From: an uncultured Lachnospiraceae bacterium
GTDB taxonomy: Bacteria > Bacillota > Clostridia > Lachnospirales > Lachnospiraceae
Direction: 5' to 3'
Length of the DNA: 39,565 nt
NCBI GenBank assembly: GCA_947626395.1
Contig: CANQRU010000033.1
Location: 1 to 39,565, forward strand
A program made the translations under genes and the position numbers. Under the pieces are notes generated by a model. It worked only from the letters and a program-made list of their open reading frames with translations. It was not told the DNA's origin and did no database searches. This document shows, in pieces, positions 10,555 to 36,178 of the stretch. How positions within the stretch are numbered: position 1 is the first letter of the stretch; every line of letters begins with the position of its first letter.

Positions 10555-11687
10555 GCCTTCCATCTCTCCGACACCTCCCACTTCTTATACAGCAGATACT
10601 GGGCGTAGGCCATGCACAGAGCCGCCACGCCCTTGTTATCGTCATCCACCACCGGTTCCGAGAAATAATACGCGAGGCTGCCGTCCCTCCGCCCCGGATC
10701 CGGGCCCAGGCCCGCCACGGCGCAGGTTCCGGTCATCACCAGTTTCCCGTCCTTCTCCACGATCCGGTCCCGGATCAGGCTGTCCAGGATCTTCTCCGCC
10801 GCCGGCAGGTATTTCTCCCCCAGGATCAGGCGCAGACGGCTGGCCTTAAAGATCGTGGCCGCGACCATCGCCGAGCCGGAGGTCTCCAGATAATTCCCCT
10901 TCGAGGCCAGATCCGCGCGGTCGATCACCTGCCAGAAAAGCCCGGTCTCGGGATCCTGGTATTTCAGAATACTCTGAAGCGCCTCCCGCAGCGTATCCTG
11001 CAGCGGGCGCAGATAGTCGTAGACGTGCCGGTCCATCTCCTCCATCGTGTCGATCAGGCTGACCAGATACCAGCCCATGGCGCGCAGCCAGAAATTCTGC
11101 GAACAGCCGCTTTCCGGATCCGCCCAGAAGATGCTCTTCGACTCGTCATAACCGTGGAAATAAAGGCCGGTCTTCGGATCCCGCATATTCTTCCGCACAT
11201 TCTCAAACTGGTTGCAGACGTCCAGGTACTGATCCTTCGAGCCGCGGCTTGCGTCCAGCGTCATCCGAAACGGCTGCGCCATGAACAGGCCGTCCAGCCA
11301 CACCTGGTTCGGATAGATCTTCTTGTGCCAGTAATTGCCGGAAGCTGTCCGCGGCTGGCCCGCCAGCTGGGTTCCCAGGCTCTCGATCGCCTTGTGGTAC
11401 CTCTCCTCGCCGGTCTGCTCCCACGCGAAGAACAGCGCACGTCCGGGAAGAACGTCATCCAGCTTGTAATCCTCCTGTTTGTATGTGCGGATCGTGCCGT
11501 CCTCCAGGACATACCGGTCCGCGTAGTTCAGCGCGTAATCCTTAAACTGTTCCTTCCCGGTCGCCCTGTAAAGCTGCACAGCGGCCAGCGCCAGGCAGCC
11601 GTCGGCGTAGTTCCATTTGTTCCACTGCAGACGGCTGTCGTCGGCGTAGAACCCGTCGATGAAACGGTCAAGTTTTGCAAAATCCAT
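10551..11687 (-). CDS. Glycoside hydrolase family 105 (unsaturated galacturonyl/rhamnogalacturonyl hydrolase)
   Basis: The 378-residue (alpha/alpha)6-barrel protein matches YteR/YesR-type GH105 enzymes: KLDDVLPGRALFFAWEQTG, NQVWLDGLFMAQPF (the Asp near 132 corresponds to the catalytic acid) and NFWLRAMGWYLVSLID. It hydrolyses the unsaturated uronic acid left at the end of oligosaccharides by pectin lyases. It has no signal peptide, fitting a cytoplasmic role. It heads the pectin gene run and its stop overlaps the GH28 start. GGGGG lies eight bases before the ATG as a ribosome binding site. Confidence 0.95.
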   Translation of the reverse strand: MDFAKLDRFIDGFYADDSRLQWNKWNYADGCLALAAVQLYRATGKEQFKDYALNYADRYVLEDGTIRTYKQEDYKLDDVLPGRALFFAWEQTGEERYHKAIESLGTQLAGQPRTASGNYWHKKIYPNQVWLDGLFMAQPFRMTLDASRGSKDQYLDVCNQFENVRKNMRDPKTGLYFHGYDESKSIFWADPESGCSQNFWLRAMGWYLVSLIDTMEEMDRHVYDYLRPLQDTLREALQSILKYQDPETGLFWQVIDRADLASKGNYLETSGSAMVAATIFKASRLRLILGEKYLPAAEKILDSLIRDRIVEKDGKLVMTGTCAVAGLGPDPGRRDGSLAYYFSEPVVDDDNKGVAALCMAYAQYLLYKKWEVSERWKA

Positions 11688-14688: not shown

Positions 14689-14812
14689 GCGCACATCCCT
14701 CCCATGAAAATACGTTCCTGTTTCTATTATATCTCTTTTTTCTTCCCAGTGAAAGCATAATATCTTAATTTTTGCATACTGCCGCAATACACGCCGGGGC
14801 GTCGCCGGTGCC

Positions 14813-14874
14813 AATGCTCTTCCTGCATGGAAATACAAGAAGAGCGTCACTGGCGCCCTTCCTGCATGGAAATA
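14813..14874. repeat. Hairpin repeat locus 1 (CATGGAAATA-loop element, two units)
   Basis: Two tandem units share CTTCCTGCATGGAAATA. In the first, CTCTTCCTG pairs with CAAGAAGAG (eight of nine bases) around the ten-base loop CATGGAAATA. The stretch 14822-14874 is 50/53 identical, in the same orientation, to 35964-36016 inside the heparinase-like gene. It lies in the non-coding gap upstream of the candidate antitoxin and downstream of the hydratase stop. Confidence 0.8.
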
Positions 14875-14896
14875 AAAAAACAGGCCGGAAGATGTA

Positions 14897-34138: not shown

Positions 34139-36178
34139 ATGCTCGCTGAAATTGCTTCAAACATTGTGATAGAATCATCTGCCGTATACCGCGGTCTTCC
34201 TGCCGCCGCGGACCGGGCGGCGTGGGAGAACCTGCCGGAAGATCTGAAGGCGGCGCTGATCACCGAAGGGGAGAACTATCTGGGTTACGCATACCCGCAG
34301 ATCCTGGCCACGGACTACATGGAATTTACAAGGACCGGCAACCGGGTTCATTACGAGGACAAGCAGTTCGCCCGCCGGACGGCGCTCTGTGCGCTGGTCC
34401 TGGCAGAATGCGCGGAATATAAAGGACGGTTTCTGGATGATATCGTCAACGGCATCTTCCTGATCTGCGAGGAAAGCGGCTGGCAGCTTCCGGCCCACAA
34501 TTCCGCAGACGGGCCGCAGATGCCGCTGCCGGATGTGACCGAACCAGTCGTCGATCTGTTCGCCGCCGAGACCGCGGCGGTTCTCGGCGTGGCGGAATAT
34601 CTGCTGCGGGACGCGCTGGCGAACGTAAGCCCGGCCATTTCCACTTTAGTCAATGATAATCTGCAGAGAAGAATCTTCGTTCCGTATCTGACCAGATACT
34701 TCTGGTGGATGGGCAACGGTTCCAGACCGCTCAATAACTGGACGTCGTGGTGTACGCAGAATGTGCTGCTGGCGGCGTTTACGAGAGAACCGATCCCGGC
34801 AGTGAAGCAGAACGAGGCATCATTCTCTGCAACTACAACTCAGACGGATGGTTCTACTCCGGAATGCGGCAAAACAGCAGTTTCCACAACTATGTCTCGG
34901 ACGGACGGTACTGCGGCGGAAAGTACCGCATCGGCATCGATTCTCCCACCCGACTGGAAAGACCGCGTCTTCCGTCAGGCCTGCGCAAGTCTCGATTATT
35001 TTCTGGCCGACTATGAGGAGGACGGCTGCTGCGACGAGGGAGCGCAGTATTTCGGCCACGCGGCGCTGACGCTCTTCGAGTCGCTGGAAGTGCTGAACGA
35101 TATCACCGGCGGCCGGTTCAGCGGTGTGTACCGGGAAACAAAGATCCGCAACATGGCCGCCTACATCCTGAACGTCCATGCAGCCGGACCGTACTATCTC
35201 AATTTTGCGGACTGCTCGCCCCTGGCGGGCCGCCGCGGTGCGCGGGAATATCTCTTCGGAAAACGGACCGGCAGCGACGCCCTGGCGGCATTCGCCGCCC
35301 GGGATTATGCGGAGAGCTCCGTATCAGAGAAACTGGCCGTGGAAGAACACAACCTGTTCTACCGCGCTCAGGCTGTATTCTGCCATGAGGAAATGATGGC
35401 GGCGGCCGGCTCCCCGTCCGTTGCAGCGCCCCCCGACATCTTCTACCCCAGCACCGGCCTCTTCATCGCCAGGGACGATCATTTCTGCCTGGCCGTCAAA
35501 GCCGGAGACAACGATGACAATCATAATCACAACGACACCGGCAGCTTCATCATTTACAAGGACGGACGGCCGCTGTTCATCGACCTGGGCGTGGAATCCT
35601 ACACGCAGAAGACTTTCTCCGACCGGCGCTACGAGATCTGGACCATGCAGTCTGCCTGGCACAACCTGCCCACCATCGGCGGCGTGATGCAGGCGGCAGG
35701 ACCTCAGTACGCGGCGGCCGGCGTAATCATGCATCAGAATCGCGCCGAATCCCGCATCTCCATGGACATCGCCCCCGCTTATCCAGATAACCGGATCCGC
35801 TCTTACATCCGCGCTGTCTCTCTGGAAAAGGGGCGCCGGATCGTGATCCGCGACGCCTGGGACCTGGCGGAGGCGATGCCGGTGGTTCTTACGCTGCTCA
35901 CCTGCGAAAAACCCTCTCTTTGTTCCTGCACGGAAACAGGAACAGAGTGTCACCCGCGCCCTGCCTGCATGGAAGCACAAGAAGCGCGTCACTGGCGCCC
36001 TTCCTGCATGGAAATACAGATCGGCGCCCTTGCCGCATGCCGCGTCAGAGGCGCCGAACAGATCAACATGGAGGAGATCCCGATCACCGATCCCCGTCTG
36101 GCCAAAGCCTGGCCGAAAAGCATATACCGTATCCTCATCACCGCGGGCAGCGATTCCTGTGAGCTTGAGATCATCTAG
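34139..36178 (+). CDS. Heparinase II/III-like polysaccharide lyase with in-frame insertions
   Basis: The 679-residue protein has an alpha/alpha-barrel N-terminal half (ENYLGYAYPQILATDYMEFT; RYFWWMGNGSRPLNNWTSWC; LADYEEDGCCDEGAQYFGHA) and the C-terminal heparinase II/III domain (LAVKAGDNDDNHNHNDTGSF, IDLGVESYTQKTFSDRRYEI). Members cleave uronic-acid polysaccharides. No signal peptide, so cytoplasmic. Two insertions stand out. Residues 216-270 are Thr/Ser-rich with an internal imperfect repeat. Residues about 593-628 are encoded by the CATGGAAATA hairpin repeats and fall in the beta-sheet C-terminal domain between LLTCEKP and IQIGALA. GGAG lies nine bases before the ATG. It ends two bases from the convergent solute-binding gene. 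Confidence 0.9.
   Translation: MLAEIASNIVIESSAVYRGLPAAADRAAWENLPEDLKAALITEGENYLGYAYPQILATDYMEFTRTGNRVHYEDKQFARRTALCALVLAECAEYKGRFLDDIVNGIFLICEESGWQLPAHNSADGPQMPLPDVTEPVVDLFAAETAAVLGVAEYLLRDALANVSPAISTLVNDNLQRRIFVPYLTRYFWWMGNGSRPLNNWTSWCTQNVLLAAFTREPIPAVKQNEASFSATTTQTDGSTPECGKTAVSTTMSRTDGTAAESTASASILPPDWKDRVFRQACASLDYFLADYEEDGCCDEGAQYFGHAALTLFESLEVLNDITGGRFSGVYRETKIRNMAAYILNVHAAGPYYLNFADCSPLAGRRGAREYLFGKRTGSDALAAFAARDYAESSVSEKLAVEEHNLFYRAQAVFCHEEMMAAAGSPSVAAPPDIFYPSTGLFIARDDHFCLAVKAGDNDDNHNHNDTGSFIIYKDGRPLFIDLGVESYTQKTFSDRRYEIWTMQSAWHNLPTIGGVMQAAGPQYAAAGVIMHQNRAESRISMDIAPAYPDNRIRSYIRAVSLEKGRRIVIRDAWDLAEAMPVVLTLLTCEKPSLCSCTETGTECHPRPACMEAQEARHWRPSCMEIQIGALAACRVRGAEQINMEEIPITDPRLAKAWPKSIYRILITAGSDSCELEII
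35912..36055. repeat. Hairpin repeat locus 2, inside the heparinase-like gene (three to four units)
   Basis: Unit 1 has a strong stem, GTTCCTG with CAGGAAC and outer CTCT/AGAG arms, around the loop CACGGAAA. Units 2 and 3 carry CCTGCATGGAAGCA and CTTCCTGCATGGAAATA. A degenerate fourth unit follows. GGCGCC recurs at 35994, 36023 and 36050. The 53 bases 35964-36016 match 14822-14874 at 50 positions. The reading frame of the host gene stays open throughout. Confidence 0.8.

Follow-up and report, generated by a model that had tools for sequence, protein, structure and literature searches.

The window, that is, the whole stretch of 39,565 nt analysed here (contig C33 of a host genome of 3.46 Mb in 87 contigs), contains a polysaccharide lyase gene with a tandem hairpin repeat in its coding sequence and a similar repeat between genes near 14.8 kb. 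The question raised by this locus is whether both belong to one family of elements that can settle between genes and also inside them without breaking the frame, as a sequence-only reading had proposed. The answer favoured here, with a probability of about 0.8, is a family of short palindromic elements, restricted to the genus, with defined ends, a covarying stem, arrays and in-frame residence in genes, whose insertion would be linked to the tetranucleotide AATA. The features of the window and the genes hosting units elsewhere in the genome are collected in Table 1.

Table 1. Features of the window and genes of the same genome with units inside the protein (positions refer to the window, L handles to other loci).
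Feature	Location	Strand or orientation	Basis
Heparinase II/III-like polysaccharide lyase gene, 679 aa, host of the intragenic array	34139..36178	+	ORF; Pfam PF07940, E 4.6e-12
Degenerate first lyase unit, remnant (right arm and tail)	35918..35935	+	read from sequence
Lyase full unit 1, in frame	35936..35974	+	register of the 30-unit alignment; 9/14 pairs kept
Lyase full unit 2, codes for AQEARHWRPSCME	35975..36013	+	covariance model 35972-36019, 66.5 bits, E 1.1e-15
Intergenic array, degenerate first unit	14787..14832	+	read from sequence; within the -54.9 kcal/mol fold, z -3.75
Intergenic full unit, top score among the listed genome copies	14833..14871	+	covariance model 14830-14877, 74.2 bits
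EPSP synthase	L195		
CobQ	L188		
Gfo/Idh/MocA oxidoreductase with Cys-rich domain	L199		
Glycosyltransferase	L201		
GH95	L204		
ABC-F-like ATPase	L207	antisense	
Alpha/beta hydrolase-like protein	L208	antisense	by look, no Pfam match
Anti-sigma-type protein	L141		sub-threshold DUF4179 match
Transglutaminase-like membrane protein	L125		

The repeat unit and its arrays in the window

The unit comprises 39 nt, equal to 13 codons, and forms a hairpin with a covarying stem around the loop CACTG, the left end being AATAC and the right end GGAAATA. The stem consensus is CAGGGCGT-CACTG-GCGCCCTG, and with the loci laid side by side the unit reads roughly ATAC RRGCRGRGCGT CACTG GCGCYCTGCYYG CAT GGAA and recurs head to tail every 39 nt. 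A single element consists of AATAC, the hairpin and GCATGGAAATA, and AATA is therefore present at both ends. These ends were delimited on 35 single-unit elements of the same genome, selected in part by their right tail, with up to 3 mismatches, and independently of the left end. The majorities were 0.80, 0.83, 0.89, 0.91 and 0.91 along AATAC and 0.74-1.00 along GGAAATA, falling to 0.37 one base outside on either side. A minor second tail, GCATACTGACG, was identified in about 7 units as against 110 with the main tail, a count left from ten matching rows once L129, L177 and L193 had been dropped by eye as chance or degenerate. There is also a minor unit type with an A/T-rich stem in which the tail GCATACTGACGTAA replaces GCATGGAAATA (L171 2153, L185 1998 and L196 2771, on the hit strand).

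The stem was analysed in an alignment of 30 units, one of 31 having been dropped for a 3-base insertion. It comprises 14 pairs, with standard pairing in 84.0% of 420 cells, which fell to 28-48% when the pairing was slid by 1-3 columns. Two-sided changes were counted in 31 cells against 15.1 in shuffles, a value reached by none of 500. Of five covariation measures two were not above shuffles: 7 pairs had two-sided changes, and 18 further pair types were counted. RNAalifold, unaided, predicted only the four inner stem pairs plus two linker pairs, and support for the outer stem comes from the count made for the named structure. Single-sequence folds of both arrays in the window also pair neighbouring units, a right arm with the left arm that follows it, and within arrays both pairings, the CACTG hairpin and that between neighbouring units, are predicted as possible.

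The similarity first noticed between the two arrays is exact as described, 35964-36016 and 14822-14874 being identical at 50 of 53 bases, and the lyase ORF is indeed open throughout the repeat stretch. The units in the lyase are in tandem, but they are fewer than the three to four proposed: two full 39-nt units, preceded by the right half of another. In the search of the window, the covariance model alone picked the second full unit and missed the first. The stretch CATGGAAATA, taken before as a conserved loop, is conserved but is the linker between units, since the stem of the family surrounds CACTG. Hairpins around CATGGAAATA are predicted by single-sequence folding at both places, but single-unit elements can form only the CACTG hairpin. 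The argument for recognition drawn from loop conservation is not supported, the conserved stretch being a linker. The array at 14.8 kb folds better than its shuffles (z -3.75, none of 200 as good); the repeat stretch of the lyase, taken whole, shows no such advantage (z -0.72, equalled or surpassed by 43 of 200).

Copies in the genome and in the genus

The repeat is abundant in the host genome. The 12-mer CCTGCAYGGAAA occurs at 27 places, its reversed control at 2, and the covariance model gave at least 133 matches at E<=1 and at least 130 at E<=0.01, both lower bounds from 150 scored candidates out of 2174, so the family occupies many more than the two places first seen. Sampling of 300 kb from the two largest contigs identified 13 units at 11 sites, equivalent to about 150 per genome. 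A sample of 440 kb, in which the two largest contigs are joined by the window and by parts of C4 and C6 chosen with knowledge of the hits, contained 29 units at 24 sites, equivalent to about 230. By extrapolation the total is about 150-230 copies.

The taxonomic range is narrow. With 100 candidates scored per genome, E<=0.01 was reached in 17 of 61 genomes, made up of 16 of the 26 members of the genus and one genome of another genus with a weak match (0.0099). Within the genus ten members have at least 67 matches, six have 1 to 9 and ten have none. A search of 299 genomes of the family, with 20 candidates scored per genome and stricter filters, found matches at E<=1e-4 in two, both from the genus, and in none of the 297 sampled from other genera. 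An exact 31-base pattern was identified among GTDB genomes in 15 stretches, every one in uncultured Lachnospiraceae MAGs named Lapin, which may come from rabbit if the name is so read. The exact 29-base repeat pattern is absent from viral contigs, exact matches only being considered. G021, a close relative, gave just 9 matches where its neighbours have about 80-100, which would reflect either loss of the repeat or loss of its mobiliser.

Most copies are intergenic. The 24 sites of the 440 kb sample, with gene calls made by an own hexamer script in place of a standard gene finder, fall mostly in tandem gaps (15) and convergent gaps (6), with 3 inside genes and none in divergent gaps; the in-gene share is far below the coding share of the DNA, about 89% (p 1.3e-17), and in the two largest contigs alone 1 of 11 sites is inside a gene (p 2.8e-9). 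Roughly 1 site in 8 to 11 is intragenic. Another 67 hit-centred sites were distributed as 9 in genes, 25 in tandem, 23 in convergent and 7 in divergent gaps, with 3 at edges. Combined, the 76 intergenic sites are 29 convergent, 40 tandem and 7 divergent. Convergent gaps number 27 among the 311 gaps of the 440 kb sample and make up 13% of the total gap length, and their excess is firmer than an avoidance of divergent gaps. Such avoidance was discarded because divergent gaps hold 7 of the 55 hit-centred intergenic sites, against 0 of 21 for the 440 kb sample.

This location bears on the strongest alternative, by which the units are selected RNA hairpins, that is, 3' UTR elements serving as mRNA stabilisers or as RNase or terminator-like sites, and the intragenic copies are side products. 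The convergent excess would be expected of such elements, as would the stem covariation, G-U pairs included, and the slightly weaker stems of intragenic units, which keep a mean of 10.5 of 14 pairs against 11.9 (p 0.012, 3 of the 21 gene rows being chance or off-register matches). However, units in tandem gaps are evenly split in their orientation to the genes, with 19 sense and 21 antisense, the occupancy of sites differs among close species, and no match was obtained in ten of the 26 members of the genus. At the gathering threshold Rfam identified no RNA family at the units, only two tRNAs elsewhere. The RNA explanation is considered unlikely, and the family of palindromic elements is retained as the preferred reading.

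Units inside genes

Ten unrelated genes of the genome carry in-frame units inside the protein (Table 1), which bears out the earlier proposal that a hairpin repeat spreads to sites between genes and also into coding sequence with the frame intact; three more copies at gene ends (L172, L191 and L185) may not belong to the true protein. The units occupy four frames, three sense and one antisense, and the sole stop-containing frame is not used. Whole-unit insertion would keep the frame because 39 is 3 x 13 and five of the six frames of the consensus are without stops. A designed openness of the frames was rejected, 31% of composition shuffles being equal or better.

The spacing of units inside genes was 39 in 29 cases, 42 in two and 36 in one, all multiples of 3, although in-gene sites were found partly through open frames, a bias toward such spacing. 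Five rows had been set aside (38 in three lyase rows, 41 in two anti-sigma-like rows), where the second match was by eye ordinary gene sequence. Between genes 29 of 36 spacings were 39 and the others 34, 38, 38, 40, 45, 37 and 38, only one of these seven being a multiple of 3 (Fisher p 0.033 against the in-gene spacings, indicative only, as orthologous arrays were counted repeatedly). The pattern suggests that the intragenic arrays are under selection for frame, as if translated.

Orthologs were compared in up to ten relatives. Copies without units were found for seven of the ten genes; GH95, the hydrolase and the anti-sigma-type protein presented only differences in unit number. The lyase has units in G000, G004, G009 and G012 and none in G001, and across the same stretch the protein of the window is 24 residues longer than that of G001, so the insertion proposed earlier stands with fewer than the about 35 residues then given to it. 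Unit-free lyases are also present in G003, G006, G007, G010, G011 and G022, genomes without any repeat match, and the inserted residues are not a conserved part of the domain. In several repeat-rich species other loops of the lyase (window 34780-34960, 35400-35440 and 35710-35740) also contain in-frame expansions, which are unrelated to the hairpin unit. Examples are a KEADLTR-type tandem repeat in G001 and, in G004, G009 and G012, a long insert rich in Q, D and N.

The remaining genes vary in the same way. CobQ has two units in G000, G004, G009 and G002 and none in G012, where the flanks are identical to those of G000 and the empty site may represent a loss. The Gfo oxidoreductase has none in G018 and G002, two in G000 and G004 and three in G012 and G009. 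The glycosyltransferase has one in G000 and G004 and none in G018, G012, G021, G001 and G019; the ABC-F protein has one in G000, G012 and G001 and none in G002, G021 and G003; and the transglutaminase has one in G000, two in G012 and none in G004, G018, G009 and G002. Three units are present in the anti-sigma-type protein of G000, two in five species and one in G012, while the hydrolase has 1 to 4 among six species and GH95 1 or 2 among four. Between genes, locus L190:1827 of the own genome equals that of G004 plus exactly one 39-nt unit, and L190:6680 has 3, 3, 1, 0 and 0 units in G000, G004, G009, G018 and G021. On alignment these differences show gain and loss of whole units.

The EPSP synthase of G000 has one unit where ten other species have none, several of them with unrelated inserts there. 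In G001 two units are found elsewhere in the protein (L254 1892-1960), an insertion that, judged by its position, is independent of that in G000; the remaining nine species were compared at the G000 unit site rather than over the full length. Against the solved structure 3rmt, residues 181-223 of the query (43 residues) face residues 213-217 of the chain (5 residues), which fits an insert at a surface turn. The repeat thus appears, as far as sequences tell, to have added 13-residue blocks to unrelated proteins. An MtaB-like protein (named by eye; L185 2046-3683) has a tandem block of a different kind, QAEERRHLSGADR and variants, and the clade seems rich in coding insertions generally.

Proposed mode of spread and relation to known elements

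The AATA at both ends, together with AATA-like empty sites, suggests insertion at AATA with a new AATA left at the right end, which would account for the exact head-to-tail period. AATA was identified at the empty sites of CobQ (AAATAC, G012), of Gfo (GAATAC, G018 and G002) and of L190:6680 in G021, where a gene ends in GAATAG; the near match GAGTAG takes its place in G018. Only partial AATA was found at those of the glycosyltransferase (GCATAC, G021 and G018), the lyase (GGAAATCA) and ABC-F (GGAAAACGC). The EPSP synthase copy of G000 is an exception to the model: it lacks the left AATAC, and its flank shows a duplication of about 10 nt.

In the mechanism preferred here, site-specific insertion regenerating its own target, an element would insert beside an AATA-like target and every insertion would leave a fresh AATA at the right end as the next target. 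Arrays would be built by repeated insertion at the regenerated AATA or by slippage, and insertions would persist where 13-residue blocks are tolerated. The favoured guess for the chemistry is a tetranucleotide-specific single-strand (HUH-type) transposition, perhaps inactive now or acting in trans. The full picture of a self-targeting mobile hairpin, inserting at AATA, growing head to tail by 13 codons and lengthening many enzymes in three sense frames and one antisense frame, is put forward only tentatively. If true, a free-living gut lineage would have a standing supply of in-frame protein extensions.

No transposase was identified by Pfam in the eight unit-enclosed genes of the examined loci, which are housekeeping, regulatory or of no known role (two without any family), and such genes were discarded as a hidden mobiliser. 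IS200/IS605 elements and their non-autonomous derivatives have subterminal hairpins and a short target of fixed sequence, and here no tnpA with matching end hairpins was found. The sole Y1_Tnp gene of the own genome is IS200-like (L028 1210-1923), with end hairpins unlike the unit by eye. Its presence does not track the repeat: it was not found in the repeat-rich G002, G004, G009, G013, G018 and G023 and is present in G005, G007, G010, G011 and G015, none of which gave a repeat match. An IS200 or RAYT gene as present-day mobiliser was rejected on these two grounds, although the incompleteness of the MAGs weakens the negatives from both the Y1_Tnp comparison and the enclosed genes.

The same results weigh on a classical REP system moved by a REP-associated tyrosine transposase. 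Size, hairpin, location at gene ends, intragenic copies and a conserved tetranucleotide at the hairpin foot are all REP-like as REPs are described in PMC3733652; one unit lies upstream of the tnpA at L028, behind an apparent ribosomal protein gene, and Y1_Tnp matches were also found in the repeat-rich G001 (a fragment), G008 and G012. This alternative is nevertheless held to be improbable, somewhat more so than the RNA one, because the GTAG tag is missing, CGTC is within the stem and not at an unpaired end, the arrays run head to tail and the transposase gene is distributed as above. Local tandem repeats arising by slippage separately in each protein, with no mobile element, would explain unit numbers changing in 39-nt steps and have a parallel in the unrelated expansions of other lyase loops, but this is already contradicted by the DNA sequence shared across frames, one unit sequence being found in ten unrelated genes, in several frames and at many intergenic sites, and is very hard to credit.

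Elements within genes have reportedly been found in Methanocaldococcus in a similar way. The preferred family of palindromic elements can be compared with several described systems. In-frame residence in genes is established for Rickettsia palindromic elements (RPE), ERIC and Yersinia elements in the accounts of PMC2229807 and PMC10969869. The proposed comparability in principle with RPEs proved sound, as palindromes are dispersed between genes and in frame in genes of conserved enzymes within one lineage only (PMC10969869, PMC2229807). Classical RPEs are 105-150 bp long, whereas the unit here has 39 nt, the comparison being one of descriptions. RPE-4 and RPE-6 are short and are given in PMC3733652 as equivalent to CGTC-tagged REPs, in contrast to the Lachnospiraceae unit, which is untagged, forms head-to-tail arrays of whole 13-codon units and has AATA at both ends. 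The repeat works like an RPE and is not filed as one.

REPs are presented in PMC3733652 as palindromes of 20-40 bp in high copy, mainly in convergent and tandem gaps and in some ORFs, where clusters encode 43 to 82 residues; head-to-tail dimers are there absent, under-represented or negligible. The Lachnospiraceae unit is also a high-copy palindrome of convergent and tandem gaps with some copies in ORFs, but in column profiles it has no GTAG or terminal CGTC tag, it forms head-to-tail arrays, and no linked transposase was found, the single unit near the IS200 tnpA leaving the RAYT linkage of the GTAG type without a counterpart. PARCELs (PMC2996958, as described there) are tandem repeats in coding sequence whose DNA has dyad symmetry, features shared with the present repeat, and have a 25-residue amphipathic motif in ORFs without assigned function; here the repeat has 13 residues, is read in several frames, is mostly intergenic and enters conserved enzymes.

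Protein-modifying palindromes are described, in PMC3733652 and PMC2229807, from obligate intracellular Rickettsia and from some REP-rich Proteobacteria and Verrucomicrobia; searches of open-licence literature found no paper on such a family in Lachnospiraceae. The present one, in gut Lachnospiraceae, is of high copy, and many close species differ in the number of units at the same place of an enzyme (none, two or three; one to four). Such a series allows direct tests both of the movement of the element and of the relevance of the residues, and the mechanism can be approached through the defined ends and the AATA pattern.

Units also flank a rearrangement at L125 (10577-11625), where the gene at 10937-11566 has units on both sides and is inverted with respect to eleven relatives (G001, G002, G012, G013, G015, G017, G018, G019, G020, G021 and G023) and not with respect to G004. 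Near-palindromic repeats of this kind may mediate inversions.
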